Assembly: GCF_030553305.1 (NCBI RefSeq)
Contig: NZ_JARRAH010000001.1
Coordinates: 2,108,001 to 2,172,000, forward strand
Source of the DNA: Halomarina ordinaria
GTDB lineage: Archaea > Halobacteriota > Halobacteria > Halobacteriales > Haloarculaceae
Reading direction: 5' to 3'
DNA: 64,000 bases
The position numbers were made by a program, and so were the translations under genes. Below are positions 30,716 to 35,119 of the stretch, one piece after another; the stretch's first letter is position 1, and every line of letters begins with the position of its first letter. The notes under the pieces are model-generated. The model was not told the origin of the DNA. It saw only the letters and a program-made list of their open reading frames with translations, and searched no databases.

Positions 30716-30781
30716 ATGAGCGACTCGCTCGCGGGTGCCGGGGAGAGACCGGACGAGGAACGTGCGGGGGGACGCCCGTGA
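30716..30781 (+). CDS. Possible micro-ORF between eif1A and rio1
   Basis: An ATG four bases after the eif1A stop opens a 21-codon frame (MSDSLAGAGERPDEERAGGR and one more residue). Its TGA overlaps the rio1 GTG as GTGA. It could encode a tiny protein or simply carry ribosomes from eif1A to rio1. No homologue is known to me, so coding is uncertain. Confidence 0.35.
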   Translation: MSDSLAGAGERPDEERAGGRP

Positions 30782-31635
30782 GCGGCAGTCGCGAGGAGTA
30801 CGGGCTGCTCGACTTCGAGAACGTCGAGGGGGTCGGCGACGAGTGGGAGGAGGTCGACGTCTCCGACACCGAGGCCGACCGCATCGCCCGCAAGCGCGAC
30901 CGCGAGTTCCTCGAGTTCCGGAAGCGCATCAAGGACGCCGAGCAGTTCAAGGTCGAGGGGTCGGTGTTCGACGACGCGACGTTCGCGGCCATCTACAAAC
31001 TCGTCCAGGACGGCCACATCGACGCGTTCGGCGGCCCCCTCTCGTCGGGGAAGGAGGCGTCGGTGTACGAGGCGCTCGGTCCCGACGGGACCGTCGCGGT
31101 GAAGGTGTATCGCATCTCCGCGAGCGACTTCAAGCAGATGCGCGACTACCTCGACGGCGACCCCCGCTTCGAGGGCATCGGCAACGACAAGTCGAAGGTG
31201 GTGCTGGCGTGGGTCAGAAAGGAGTACGCCAACATGCGCCGCGCCCGCGACGCGGGGGTTCGCGTCCCCCGCCCCATCGCCGTCGAGCGGAACGTTCTCG
31301 TCATGGAGTACGTCGGCGACGACGGCCAGCGCGGCCACCGCCTCGCGGAGGTCTCCGTCGAGAACCCCGAGACGGCCTACGAGGTGGTCCGGGAGTACAC
31401 CCGTCGGCTCTACGACGCGGGGCTGGTCCACGGCGACCTGAGCGAGTACAACATCGTCGTCCACGAGGGGGAACTGTACGTCATCGACCTCGGCCAGGCC
31501 GTCACGGTCCACCACCCCAACAGCCGCGACTTCCTCGAACGCGACTGCCGGAACGTGGCGAACTTCTTCTCGCGGCAGGGCTACGACGTCACCGGCGAGG
31601 AGATGCTCGCGTTCGTCACCGGCGAGTCCGAGTGA
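30778..31635 (+). CDS. rio1: Rio1-type atypical serine kinase
   Basis: RIO1 is an ATPase/kinase of late small-subunit maturation. The 285-residue protein shows the flexible-loop ATP motif LSSGKEASVYEA (about residue 86), the catalytic Lys in VAVKVYRI, the hinge LVMEYVG, the catalytic loop VHGDLSEYNIVV and the metal motif YVIDLGQAV. These match Rio1 rather than Rio2, which would have an N-terminal winged helix. The GTG start is coupled to the upstream frame by a four-base overlap. Confidence 0.94.
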   Translation: MSGSREEYGLLDFENVEGVGDEWEEVDVSDTEADRIARKRDREFLEFRKRIKDAEQFKVEGSVFDDATFAAIYKLVQDGHIDAFGGPLSSGKEASVYEALGPDGTVAVKVYRISASDFKQMRDYLDGDPRFEGIGNDKSKVVLAWVRKEYANMRRARDAGVRVPRPIAVERNVLVMEYVGDDGQRGHRLAEVSVENPETAYEVVREYTRRLYDAGLVHGDLSEYNIVVHEGELYVIDLGQAVTVHHPNSRDFLERDCRNVANFFSRQGYDVTGEEMLAFVTGESE

Positions 31636-31675
31636 GCGACGCAACGCTATTCTCCCCCGCCCGCAGTTGGCAGGT

Positions 31676-32542
31676 ATGGACGACACGGCACCGTCGGACT
31701 CCCCCATCACGGTCGACCGGCGGCCCCCCGGCGAGGTGTTCGCCCTCCTCGGCAACGACCTCCGGGTGGACGTCCTCCGGGCGCTGGCCGAGGCCGGCCA
31801 GGAACCGCGGACGTTCTCCGCGCTCCGCGAGCGCGTCGGCGAACGTGACTCGGGGAAGTTCAACTACCACCTCGGGAAACTGGTCGGGCCGTTCGTGCGT
31901 CGCGAGGCGGACGGCTACGCCCTCACGCTCGCCGGCCAGCAGGTCGTGGGGGCGCTGCTCGCCGGCACCTACACCGCCGAGGGGCGACTGGAGACGCTCG
32001 ACGTCCACGACCCCTGTCCGGTCTGCGAGGCCACGCCGCTCGCCGTCTCCTACGAGGACGACCACGTCACCATCGAGTGTCCCGCCTGCGAGGAGTGGTA
32101 CAACTACTTCTCGTTCCCGCCGGGGACGCTCGACCAGTACGACCCGGACGAACTCCCCGAGGCGTTCGACCGCTGGATGTACACCCTGTTCGGGCGCATC
32201 ACCGCCGGCTTCTGCGCCAGTTGTGCGGGGCGGGTGACCGGCCGACTGGAACCGGAGCACGACCGGCCGTCCATCGCCTGGGCCTGCGACCGCTGCGGCG
32301 ACGTCGCCCGTGTGTCGGCGTCGGTCCCCCTCCTGTATCACCCCGCCACCCTGGGGTTCCTCTACGACCACGGCGTCGACACGACACGCACCCCGTCGTG
32401 GCGACTGCTGCCCGAGCGCGATGTCGCCTACGACGTCGACGCCGACGGGGTGACCGTCACACTCACCCTCGACGGCGAGTCGCTCACCGGCCACGTCGAC
32501 GAACGGGGGCGCGTCGCCGGCGTCGAACGCGCCGACCGCTGA
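31676..32542 (+). CDS. Winged-helix regulator with C-terminal zinc ribbons
   Basis: The 288-residue protein has an ArsR-like winged helix (PGEVFALLGNDLRVDVLRAL to LVGPFVRREADGYALT, residues 15-85). Three CxxC pairs follow: CPVCEATPL with CPACEEWY, then CASCAGR with CDRCGD. Such DNA-binding proteins with treble ribbons are common haloarchaeal regulators of unknown targets. The ATG at 31676 lies 26 nt after an ACGCTATTCTC element. It interrupts the usual order rio1-KH protein. Confidence 0.83.
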   Translation: MDDTAPSDSPITVDRRPPGEVFALLGNDLRVDVLRALAEAGQEPRTFSALRERVGERDSGKFNYHLGKLVGPFVRREADGYALTLAGQQVVGALLAGTYTAEGRLETLDVHDPCPVCEATPLAVSYEDDHVTIECPACEEWYNYFSFPPGTLDQYDPDELPEAFDRWMYTLFGRITAGFCASCAGRVTGRLEPEHDRPSIAWACDRCGDVARVSASVPLLYHPATLGFLYDHGVDTTRTPSWRLLPERDVAYDVDADGVTVTLTLDGESLTGHVDERGRVAGVERADR

Positions 32543-32578
32543 CGACGGGCGTCCTCGCGTTTCCAACCGCGACGACCG

Positions 32579-32767
32579 CAACCGTTTTTTCGCTCGCACG
32601 GCTCTCTCTACCCGATGACCGGGCCGTCCCGCTGGCGCTGGTCGCCCCCCTCGCCAGCGGACAGTCCCCTCGGCGTCGCCGTCGCGGCCTAACCGCGACT
32701 GGCGGGCCGTCGGCGCTCCCTCCGCTCTCCTTCTCGCCTCGCCGCCGACCACCCCGACTCGACTCCG
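32579..32767 (+). promoter_or_regulatory. trpS 5' leader with candidate Trp-sensing hairpins
   Basis: A TATA-like ACCGTTTTTTCG (32581-32592) would start a leaderless message at the ATG at 32615. The leader contains a perfect stem CGCTGGCG (32630-32637) / CGCCAGCG (32652-32659), which includes the first Trp codon. A second perfect stem, GTCGCGG (32681-32687) / CCGCGAC (32693-32699), has the small ORF's TAA at the 3' end of its loop. No TATA element is visible just before trpS itself. The structure looks like a ribosome-position sensor. That role is inferred. Confidence 0.4.
32615..32692 (+). CDS. Candidate 25-residue leader peptide upstream of trpS
   Basis: The frame reads MTGPSRWRWSPPSPADSPLG and five more residues. 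It has two Trp codons separated by one Arg codon, an unusual content directly upstream of tryptophanyl-tRNA synthetase. The ATG is 29 nt downstream of the TATA-like element. The Trp codons lie in and next to one arm of a stable hairpin. No homology is claimed. It may be a sensor peptide rather than a functional protein. Confidence 0.4.
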   Translation: MTGPSRWRWSPPSPADSPLGVAVAA

Positions 32768-34006
32768 ATGCCGACGAACCACGACCCCGACACACCCGAC
32801 GCGCCCGACAGTACCGCTTCCGACCACGCCGCCGACTCCACGACCCTCGACCCCCGGGACGTCGACTACGAGACGCCCGTCGAGCGCTTCGGCGCCGCCG
32901 AACTGACCGACGACCACCTCGCCCGGTTCCCCCAGCCACCGCACCCGATGCTCCGTCGTGGCGTCTTCTACGCCGGTCGCGACGTCGACGCCCTGCTCGA
33001 CGCCTGCGAGTCGGAGGCGCCGCTTTCGGTCGTCACCGGCGTCGGTCCCTCCGGGCCGATGCACCTCGGCCACGTCCTGCCCTTCTACGTCGCGAAGTGG
33101 TTGCAGGCGGCGACCGGCGCGCACGTCTACCTCCCGCTCTCGGACGACGAGAAGTACCTCACGCGGGACCTCTCGCTCGCCGACGTGCGGTGGTACACCC
33201 GCGAGAACCTCAGGGACCTCCTCGCGGTCGGCTTCGACCCCGAGCGCACCCGTATCGTCGTCGACACGGCCGACGCGGACGTGGTCTACCCGCTGGCGAC
33301 CGCCCTCTCGAAGCACCTCACCCCGGCCACCGTCGAGGCGGTGTACGGCGCGCCCGACTCCGCCGGGGCGGGGTTCTACCCGGCGGTGCAGGCGACGCAC
33401 CTCCTGCTCCCCCAGTTCGTCCGCGGCCCTCACACCACCACCGTCCCCATCGCCGTCGACCAGGACCCGCACGTCCGCCTGGCGCGCGACCTCGCCGCCA
33501 AGGAGCGGTTCGACGTCGAGAAACCGGGGGCGCTCCTCGCGCGCTTCCTCCCGGCGCTCGACGGGCCGGGCAAGATGAGTACGACGAGCGGCGACGGGGC
33601 GCCGACCATCGCCCTCACCGACGACCGCGAGACGGTCCACGAGAAGGTGGCCCGCTACGCCTACTCCGGCGGGCAATCGAGCGTCGCGGCCCACCGCGAA
33701 CACGGCGGCGACCCCGAGGTCGACGTCGCCTTCCGGTACCTCCGGGCGTTCTTCGAACCGGACGACGCGACGGTCGAACGGCTGGCCCGGGACTACCGCT
33801 CGGGGGACCTCCTGACCGGCGAGCTGAAGGCGTACGCCGCAGACCGCATCGCGGACTTCCTCGACGCCCACCGGGCGCGCCGGCCGAGCGACGCCGACCT
33901 CGACGCCGCGCTCGCGCCCTACCGGCTCACCGACCGCGAGCGCGAACGGGCGCTCGCGGCCGTCGGTCTCGGCCCCGACCTGTCGACGGCCGCCGGCGAA
34001 CACTGA
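32768..34006 (+). CDS. trpS: Tryptophan--tRNA ligase
   Basis: This class I synthetase charges tRNA-Trp. The 412-residue protein has the HIGH-type motif SGPMHLGHVLPF (about residue 95) and the KMSKS-type motif GPGKMSTTSGDG (about residue 270). The archaeal/eukaryal TrpRS pattern AVDQDPHVRLARDLAAKE lies between them. The N-terminal extension is acidic and disordered. Haloarchaea commonly carry two TrpRS paralogues; I cannot tell which this is. It lies between a zinc-ribbon regulator and a GNAT gene. Confidence 0.94.
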   Translation: MPTNHDPDTPDAPDSTASDHAADSTTLDPRDVDYETPVERFGAAELTDDHLARFPQPPHPMLRRGVFYAGRDVDALLDACESEAPLSVVTGVGPSGPMHLGHVLPFYVAKWLQAATGAHVYLPLSDDEKYLTRDLSLADVRWYTRENLRDLLAVGFDPERTRIVVDTADADVVYPLATALSKHLTPATVEAVYGAPDSAGAGFYPAVQATHLLLPQFVRGPHTTTVPIAVDQDPHVRLARDLAAKERFDVEKPGALLARFLPALDGPGKMSTTSGDGAPTIALTDDRETVHEKVARYAYSGGQSSVAAHREHGGDPEVDVAFRYLRAFFEPDDATVERLARDYRSGDLLTGELKAYAADRIADFLDAHRARRPSDADLDAALAPYRLTDRERERALAAVGLGPDLSTAAGEH

Positions 34007-34032
34007 AGCGCCGGCACGTCGAGGGGGTTCCT

Positions 34033-34545
34033 ATGACAGAGGTCACCGTCCGACCGGCCGCCGCCGCCGACGTCGACGGGATTCGGCGCGTCGCCCAGTT
34101 GGGATGGGAGGCCGCCTACGGGGCGTTCCTCGACGCCGAGACGGTCGAGCGCGCCATGCGCGAGTGGTACGACCCCGACGTGGTCGCCGAGGGTATCGAG
34201 GACCCGTCGGTCGTCTACCGCGTCGCCGCCTCCGACGGGGTGGTGGGCTACGCCACCGGTCGCCTCGACCGCGCGACGGGTCACCTCACCTCCCTCTACG
34301 TCGACCCCGGGCGGTGGGGCGAGGGGGTCGGGAGTCGGCTGTTCGAGGCCGTCCTCGAACGGCTCGCCGAGCGCGGGGCCGAGTACGTCGAGATTCGCGT
34401 GCTCGCCGAGAACGAGGTCGGCCGGTCGTTCTACGCTGGGCGGGGCGTCCGACTCGTCATCGAGTCGGAGACCGACCTCTTCGGCGAACGCGTCCGTGAG
34501 GTGGTCTACGCCGGCCCGGTCCGGAGTGCGCTGGCGAAGGCTTGA
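34033..34545 (+). CDS. GNAT-family N-acetyltransferase
   Basis: The 170-residue protein follows the GNAT order: VRPAAAADVDGIRRVAQLGWEAAY, strand-loop LTSLYVDPGRWGEGVGSRLFEAVL with the acetyl-CoA pyrophosphate loop WGEGVGSRL, and VLAENEVGRSFYAGRGVRLV. Substrate is unknown. It starts 27 bases after trpS and ends 25 bases before the KH protein gene, so it may be part of the same transcript. It is similar in layout to the GNAT at 45854. Confidence 0.88.
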   Translation: MTEVTVRPAAAADVDGIRRVAQLGWEAAYGAFLDAETVERAMREWYDPDVVAEGIEDPSVVYRVAASDGVVGYATGRLDRATGHLTSLYVDPGRWGEGVGSRLFEAVLERLAERGAEYVEIRVLAENEVGRSFYAGRGVRLVIESETDLFGERVREVVYAGPVRSALAKA

Positions 34546-34570
34546 AACGCACCCACCCGTTAGCAGGCCC

Positions 34571-35119
34571 ATGCAGCACGTGACGATTCCGCAGGACCGC
34601 ATCGGCGCCCTCATCGGCGAGGGCGGCGAGACGATGCGGCGAATCGAGGACCGGGCCGAGGTGCGACTCGACATCGACTCCGAGACCGGTGCGGTCGCCG
34701 TCGAGACGGTCGGCGACCCCGTCACCGGGCTGATGGGTCCCGACATCGTCCGCGCCATCGGCCGCGGGTTCGCCCCCGAGGAGGCGCTCTCCCTGCTCGA
34801 CGACGACATGCGGATGTTCGAACTCGTCGACCTCGACGCCGCGACCAGAAACAAGAACGACCTCCGGCGACAGAAGGGCCGACTCATCGGCGAGGACGGC
34901 CGGACCCGTCAGCTCATGCAGGAACTCTCCGGCGCGTCCGTCGTCATCTACGGCTCGACCGTCGGTATCATCGGCGGCCCCGAGCAGGTCCGTACCGTCC
35001 GGAGCGCGGTCGAGATGCTCCTCGACGGTGCGCCCCACGGGGCGGTCTACTCGTTCCTCGAACGCCGTCGCAGCGAGATGAAGCGCCAGGGGCTGAGCTA
35101 CCACGAGTTCTCGGGGTAG
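34571..35119 (+). CDS. KH-domain RNA-binding protein (Dim2/Pno1-like)
   Basis: The 182-residue protein has two KH domains. The first is VTIPQDRIGALIGEGGETMRRIE, with the GxxG loop IGEGGE. The second is KGRLIGEDGRTRQLMQELSG near residue 100. It is the archaeal counterpart of Pno1/Dim2, which accompanies 18S/16S rRNA maturation and interacts with aIF2alpha in crenarchaea. The family is normally encoded right after eif1A and rio1. Here three genes stand between, one of them trpS. Confidence 0.9.
   Translation: MQHVTIPQDRIGALIGEGGETMRRIEDRAEVRLDIDSETGAVAVETVGDPVTGLMGPDIVRAIGRGFAPEEALSLLDDDMRMFELVDLDAATRNKNDLRRQKGRLIGEDGRTRQLMQELSGASVVIYGSTVGIIGGPEQVRTVRSAVEMLLDGAPHGAVYSFLERRRSEMKRQGLSYHEFSG

Follow-up and report, generated by a model that had tools for sequence, protein, structure and literature searches.

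Does the DNA in front of an auxiliary tryptophanyl-tRNA synthetase gene in the haloarchaeon Halomarina ordinaria encode a leader that senses tryptophan by being translated? The gene, trpS2, lies in "the window", by which we mean the whole 64,000-nucleotide stretch of DNA that was analysed (contig NZ_JARRAH010000001.1, positions 2,108,001 to 2,172,000). A first-pass annotation, made without database searches, had pointed to a short ORF with two Trp codons and two hairpins upstream of the gene, and had likened the layout to bacterial attenuators. Our comparison leads us to conclude that the 200 bases upstream of trpS2 probably form an attenuator of archaeal origin that is translated, tryptophan-sensing and ribosome-mediated; this conclusion is drawn without data on expression, transcript starts or ribosomes. 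The features to which the argument refers are as follows.

32577-32582, + strand: promoter BRE, CGCAAC, identified by its sequence and by the fixed-distance BRE/TATA/-11 signature in 97 leaders
32585-32590, + strand: TATA-like promoter element, T6; the predicted start is the leader ATG or an adjacent position
32615-32692, + strand: leaderless leader ORF of 25 codons, MTGPSRWRWSPPSPADSPLGVAVAA, with ATG at 32615 and stop codon TAA at 32690-32692
32633-32641, + strand: putative sensor codons TGG-CGC-TGG (Trp-Arg-Trp), with Ser codons in their place in the serS version
32626-32637, + strand: segment 1, the 5' arm of hairpin P1, including the first Trp codon (from the fold and P1 covariation)
32652-32662, + strand: segment 2, CGCCAGCGGAC, which forms the P1 3' arm or else pairs with the tail (from the fold and covariation)
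about 32663-32717, + strand: hairpin P2, with an AGU...GCU base (from the fold and covariation)
32718-32738, + strand: pyrimidine-rich tail, a candidate termination region (from the fold and 2:5 covariation)
32721-32726, + strand: segment 5, UCCGCU, within the tail; its partner in the alternative state is 32656-32661
32768-34006, + strand: trpS2, auxiliary tryptophanyl-tRNA synthetase of 412 aa, the gene proposed to be regulated (TIGR00233, 205 bits; PRK12285.1-4, 478 bits; PF00579)

When the sequence was re-checked, all coordinates in the first-pass annotation held: the ATG, ORF and stop codon, the Trp codons (TGG starting at 32633 and 32639), both stems, and the 75 nt between the leader stop and the trpS2 ATG at 32768. 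Its perfect 8-bp stem, in which CGCTGGCG (32630-32637) matches the reverse complement of CGCCAGCG (32652-32659) at every base, is only the core of a fuller P1 of 11 bp with one bulge, in which GTCC-(C)-GCTGGCG (32626-32637) pairs with CGCCAGCGGAC (32652-32662). Its 7-bp stem, GTCGCGG (32681-32687) with CCGCGAC (32693-32699) around a CCTAA loop that holds the stop codon, is merely the tip of the longer P2. The key element, the tail at 32718-32738 that is able to pair with the 3' arm of P1, had been missed. The annotation had also cautioned that GC-rich DNA forms hairpins easily, and for the window alone that was fair: among dinucleotide shuffles of 32600-32740, 9% contain a perfect 8-bp stem, 13% a 7-bp stem and 4% both. 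The caution is outweighed by the conservation and covariation reported below.

The housekeeping gene of the same genome is trpS1 (C1:1993712-1994947), and a third TrpRS gene, which is trpS2-like, is located on contig C4. Only two true copies of the leader were found in this genome, both preceding trpS2-type genes. The trpS2 of Halomarina halobia is 76% identical to that of the window, and its leader reads MTELCRWRWRAPSPADSSDRVVVAA. In the surrounding region (30778-35119), the window trpS2 has rio1 (30778-31635) and a DUF7347/DUF7351 HTH gene on one side, and an acetyltransferase-like ORF and a Pno1-like KH gene downstream. The rio1 neighbourhood upstream of trpS2 was seen again in Halorussus-type loci.

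The DNA upstream of trpS2 was collected from a sample of 392 Halobacteriales genomes. The gene is present in about 148 of them, and the leader in about 142 of those (these and the genome counts of about 178 and 29 given below are hand counts from tables). The trpS2 leaders combine a leaderless BRE/TATA start, an ORF of 19-29 codons with 2-3 Trp codons, a hairpin P1 that encloses these codons, an adjacent long P2, and a pyrimidine/T-rich tail. Nearly all carry W-R-W or a variant (WRWW, WQWRW, WHW, WPW) at the equivalent position. In a set of 97 non-redundant leaders, at least two Trp codons occur in the chosen frame of 96, and 219 of 223 Trp codons are 5' of the P1 3' arm; the set was selected for W-x-W, so its Trp count is biased. 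Outside this selection, the trpS2 leaders L001, L097, L116 and L121 have a single Trp codon and L120 has WW. The RNA motifs GGACAGU and GGCYUMACC are conserved, and a GCTC motif lies at a fairly constant distance from the trpS start, about 50-65 nt in most leaders. The first-pass annotation had held that its reading would fail if the ORF and stems were not conserved in close relatives; both are conserved there and well beyond, with covarying stems and Trp codons in nearly every leader.

Two of the single-Trp leaders, L001 (G000:C4) and L121 (G384:C52), together with the trpS2-type copies behind them, are nearly identical in two distant genera. Both start with GTG, and L001 is on a secondary contig of the window's own genome. 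Their similarity may reflect a recent exchange of the leader-trpS2 unit, which is no more than a possibility.

The promoter occupies a fixed position. In the 97 leaders the BRE is found at -38 to -33, the TATA element at -30 to -26 and a TA at -12/-11 relative to the leader ATG, and because this distance is constant we assign the transcription start to the ATG. The leaderless start that had been proposed from the TATA-like element is thus supported, in the absence of start-site data. In H. volcanii, 72% of protein-coding transcripts are leaderless (PMC4983044). Six genomes carry trpS2 without the leader; four of these have a promoter directly at trpS2, one has a truncated gene and one a partial trpS2 match. 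Since four genomes are predicted to express trpS2 from a direct promoter, the leader is not indispensable.

The encoded peptide is conserved only in part. In the Halorussus group a frame shift has occurred between the Trp codons and GCGGACAGT: the RNA is kept, the peptide reads GERTVS and not GADS, and the ORF ends early. In the leaders L006, L016 and L027 a stop codon follows the Trp codons immediately. These frame shifts and early stops indicate that the start, the Trp codons and the RNA are conserved, and the peptide tail is not. The Arg codon between the Trp codons changes synonymously among the 97 leaders. The leader of Halobacterium salinarum is given for reference.

L038:3830-3898: Halobacterium salinarum leader, MQSAPCGWRWRVRGADSFAAAA

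Several lines of evidence indicate that the pairings are maintained by compensatory change. P1 joins UCCGCUCYC and its variants, the first bases past the ATG, to GRGAGCGGAC. In an alignment of 57 diverse leaders (A1), 86.7% of P1 cells are paired, compared with just 33-47% in controls in which the arms were slid, and there are 54 double-change cells versus 14 in shuffles, none of 500 shuffles reaching 54. When changes were mapped on a TrpRS tree, position 2 of the P1 pair had changed six times, on both sides every time; this tree-based test placed segment 1 by its best match to segment 2, and a fixed-column count agrees with it. P2 begins immediately 3' of P1, and in many species the stop codon is in its loop. 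Its covariation is likewise strong, with 133 double changes versus 67 in shuffles (0/500). The shuffle tests do not fully correct for relatedness among the genomes.

The tail adjoins the 3' end of P2 and reaches a peak of 93% pyrimidine and 58% T. Its start, UYCGYUYYC, is complementary to segment 2, and this 2:5 pairing is found in 91.3% of cells (48-64% when slid), with 17 double changes versus 3 in shuffles (0/500). For example, a U in segment 2 faces an A in the tail in L113, L118 and L122. RNAalifold, applied to the whole leader set, selected 2:5 unprompted. The pairings 1:2 and 2:5 have segment 2 in common and are mutually exclusive. Intact leaders fold mostly as P1 plus P2; when the part that would lie under a stalled ribosome is removed, 96 of 97 leaders fold into one long hairpin composed of 2:5 and P2. 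Pairing comes easily between a segment 2 rich in purines and a tail rich in pyrimidines, and shuffled tails pair too: in the same blocked folding they did so in about 82% of leaders (mean 79.7 of the 97 leaders, maximum 84). Because this background is high, the claim for 2:5 depends mainly on its covariation and recurrence. In our view comparison establishes the three pairings (1:2, P2 and 2:5), where the promoter lies, and the ORF with its Trp codons; that these make up a conserved, translated leader for Trp whose RNA has two states is very likely.

The proposed mechanism goes beyond what comparison establishes; the stalling, the direction of the response, and the choice of termination over RNA decay or translation as the output are inferred from sequence alone. 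Transcription would begin at the ATG of the leaderless 25-codon ORF. When charged tRNA-Trp is ample, the ribosome would clear Trp-Arg-Trp, P1 (1:2) would re-form behind it with P2 alongside, and the tail past P2 would remain single-stranded, so that transcription would end there (OFF). When charged tRNA-Trp is scarce, the ribosome would stall at 32633-32641 and hide segment 1 under an assumed footprint of roughly 32618-32648; the freed segment 2 would then pair with the tail (2:5), lengthening P2 into one hairpin that masks the tail, and trpS2 would be transcribed (ON). With no ribosome on the leader, P1 would also form and the state would be OFF. The Trp codons are placed such that a stalled ribosome would cover the P1 5' arm. 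Sensing through stalling at these codons is likely, although both stalling and its dependence on charging are inferred. Termination at the tail, for which there are no 3'-end data, we favour by a small margin. At intergenic termination sites in H. volcanii a TC dinucleotide accompanies stretches of T, and 59% termination was measured for one hairpin tested there (PMC7237163). The window's P2 followed by a T/pyrimidine-rich tail is similar to these sites, without a long T run.

Attenuators of this kind have an ORF rich in the relevant codons before the gene, which is the case here (Trp, and Ser in the serS version), and mutually exclusive folds of which one is blocked by the ribosome, for which the evidence is comparative and computed only. 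They also precede a gene in the metabolism of the sensed amino acid, which holds for trpS2, trpS1 and trpD-trpF (Trp) and for serS (Ser). The attenuator-like reading of the first-pass annotation, with stalling at Trp codons, is supported by comparison, and its stalling, termination and induction remain inferences.

The element is not confined to trpS2. Two covariance models were built, R1 on the 2:5 structure and R2, which includes P1 and was used for searches. R2 matched 202 of the 392 genomes at E <= 0.01, and about 178 at E < 1e-6 once weak hits are left out. True and chance hits stood well apart: in one search true hits scored at least 49 bits and noise at most 28, and another search gave one true-looking hit at 35. 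Weak hits below 28 bits, in the window's genome and others, proved on inspection to be coding-region noise. A strict DNA pattern of the element had matches in 67 of the 392 genomes, which lay at trpS-type leaders apart from a single one before trpD; the reversed control gave 0. In a phylum-wide search, 14 of 247 genomes matched at E <= 1e-5, all of them in the order Halobacteriales; no element was detected outside that order in these 247 genomes, though a diverged version could have escaped.

In about 29 genomes that lack trpS2 the leader precedes the housekeeping trpS1, and it is absent altogether from many of the remaining trpS2-less genomes. Among the trpS1 genes examined in genomes that carry trpS2, none has it. 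The two synthetase genes are only distantly related, and the leader is common to both. A leader with three Trp codons, MLSAFRSWSWRWYRSGKRTVS followed by a stop (L299, G048:C166), precedes trpD-trpF in a genome that lacks trpS2; no other biosynthesis operon was seen to carry the element. In two genomes a Ser version precedes an auxiliary serS (TIGR00414, 434 bits); its loop holds four Ser codons at the place of the Trp codons. A third copy stands before a fragment of serS. These genes and the fragment are on secondary contigs and are not the housekeeping serS. The leaders begin MESTSRSRSQSSFWEVDS or MVSTSHSRSRPHRWEVDS and are located as follows.

L208:1501-1640, + strand: Ser-rich leader
L209, reverse strand: Ser-rich leader
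L247:256-400, + strand: Ser-rich leader

Diverged leaders precede genes of other kinds. Five are found before GNAT acetyltransferases (L212, L217, L286, L301, L302) and share no amino-acid run; some of these GNATs are weakly similar to bleomycin N-acetyltransferases. Drug-induced stalling is possible at the GNAT-associated leaders. Another, MMSATGLGPVLWHGSTVADSALA (L300, G294:C1:1344113-1344242, reverse strand), keeps P1, P2 and the tail and precedes an ABC exporter gene pair. A leader beginning MVSVSYLMRWLTFWEADS occurs twice in one genome (L207 and L245, G213), before a 302-aa methyltransferase of unassigned role. In the GNAT, ABC and methyltransferase versions no match between gene and amino acid is evident. 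Of ten diverged non-trpS leaders, nine have P1 in the fold, and when the 5' part is removed segment 2 pairs with the tail in all ten; this tail pairing is not significant for any single one. The genome with the two methyltransferase leaders also contains a decayed leader (L246, G213:C5) in which the frame is lost just 5' of the former Trp codons, the tail is missing and no synthetase gene follows. It is likely the remnant of a lost trpS2 copy.

The alternative that is hardest to set aside keeps the Trp-codon sensor and changes the output, so that the leader would act on translation or stability of the trpS2 message, through reinitiation or nuclease access to the tail. The fairly constant distance to the trpS start (about 50-65 nt from the GCTC motif) and the absence of a long T run in the tail speak for this possibility. 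Against it, the trpS start is not paired with the leader in either of the states predicted for the window, and a T/pyrimidine stretch right behind a stable hairpin suits termination as described in H. volcanii (PMC7237163). Neither point excludes it.

Two further alternatives deny the ORF or the RNA its role. If the leader RNA were an operator for TrpRS or another RNA-binding protein and the ORF incidental, the conserved GGACAGU and GGCYUMACC would speak for that account, and there is a bacterial precedent: synthetase autoregulation by operator mimicry occurs in bacteria, as in thrS of E. coli. However, the Trp codons are retained amid variable surroundings, with synonymous changes at the Arg codon that separates them. 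One RNA stands before the unrelated synthetases trpS1, trpS2 and serS as well as non-synthetase genes, and the loop of the serS version holds Ser codons, a version that disfavours a TrpRS-binding operator. We consider this explanation very unlikely. The view that the ORF is there to make a small protein with a function of its own, the hairpins being a side effect of GC-rich DNA, can draw on the 4% of window shuffles in which both stems arise by chance, but is all but excluded by the compensatory changes in three helices, by the strict pattern in 67 of 392 genomes against 0 for the reversed control, and by the peptide 3' of Trp-x-Trp, which is not conserved. The frame shift past the Trp codons in particular disfavours a functional protein. 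A translated Trp sensor, with termination as its tentative output, remains our preferred reading.

The first-pass annotation had supposed that no comparable system is established for archaeal synthetase genes, and this agrees with our search: the open-access literature, a scope that leaves out subscription papers, yielded no archaeal leader-peptide attenuator. As far as that literature shows, the element looks like the first archaeal example of the ribosome-stalling attenuators of bacteria. If confirmed, a class-wide element would show that archaea, too, arrived at a classical bacterial mechanism, and did so with leaderless messages and a polymerase of the eukaryote-like type, and archaeal transcription-translation coupling and conditional termination would become directly testable by two-codon changes. 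The apparent modularity (Trp, Ser, resistance-like genes) offers a way into the question of how amino-acid starvation is sensed in haloarchaea. A bolder reading, which we would neither urge nor dismiss, is that Halobacteria evolved a modular translation-sensing attenuator, a platform of P1, P2 and a maskable tail whose loop codons are swapped for each starvation or drug signal. Were it true, resistance-like genes (acetyltransferases, an ABC exporter) would be under the control of the platform along with Trp biosynthesis and the synthetases for Trp and Ser, and archaea would be using ribosome-RNA polymerase coupling for gene control.

Among known systems, T-box riboswitches resemble the proposed mechanism in that tRNA charging controls aminoacyl-tRNA synthetase and amino-acid genes, but they bind tRNA directly and have no translated ORF. 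The T-box covariance model had no match in the window in an Rfam search at E up to 1, in which the only match to any family was irrelevant. Rho-dependent leaders of the tnaC type are similar to the proposed mechanism in that a stalled ribosome sets access to a single-stranded, pyrimidine-rich stretch; there, however, stalling is induced by the peptide and Trp, and termination is by Rho. That factor is missing in archaea, which use aCPSF1/FttA instead; any role of the latter at this leader is hypothetical. Nearest in purpose is the predicted attenuator of Streptomyces avermitilis trpS2, described along with trp attenuators from Corynebacterium and Streptomyces (Seliverstov et al. 2005, PMC1262725); an attenuator of S. 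coelicolor trpRS1 has reportedly been studied as well (Vecchione and Sello 2010). In the actinobacterial leaders, too, a short ORF containing 2-3 Trp codons comes ahead of trp genes or an auxiliary TrpRS gene, and the RNA folds exclude each other. No sequence relation to them was noticed, an impression with no dedicated comparison behind it. They end in a GC-rich terminator hairpin with poly-U, and their antiterminator takes an arm of the terminator, whereas the haloarchaeal leader is archaeal and leaderless, lacks poly-U, and pairs segment 2 with the tail while P2 stays intact. In E. coli trpL, as proposed here, a ribosome stalled on Trp codons hides segment 1 and frees segment 2. Unlike trpL, the haloarchaeal leader has no Shine-Dalgarno start, and where trpL sets a 2:3 antiterminator against a 3:4 terminator, the haloarchaeal 2:5 pairing would lengthen the hairpin rather than break it.
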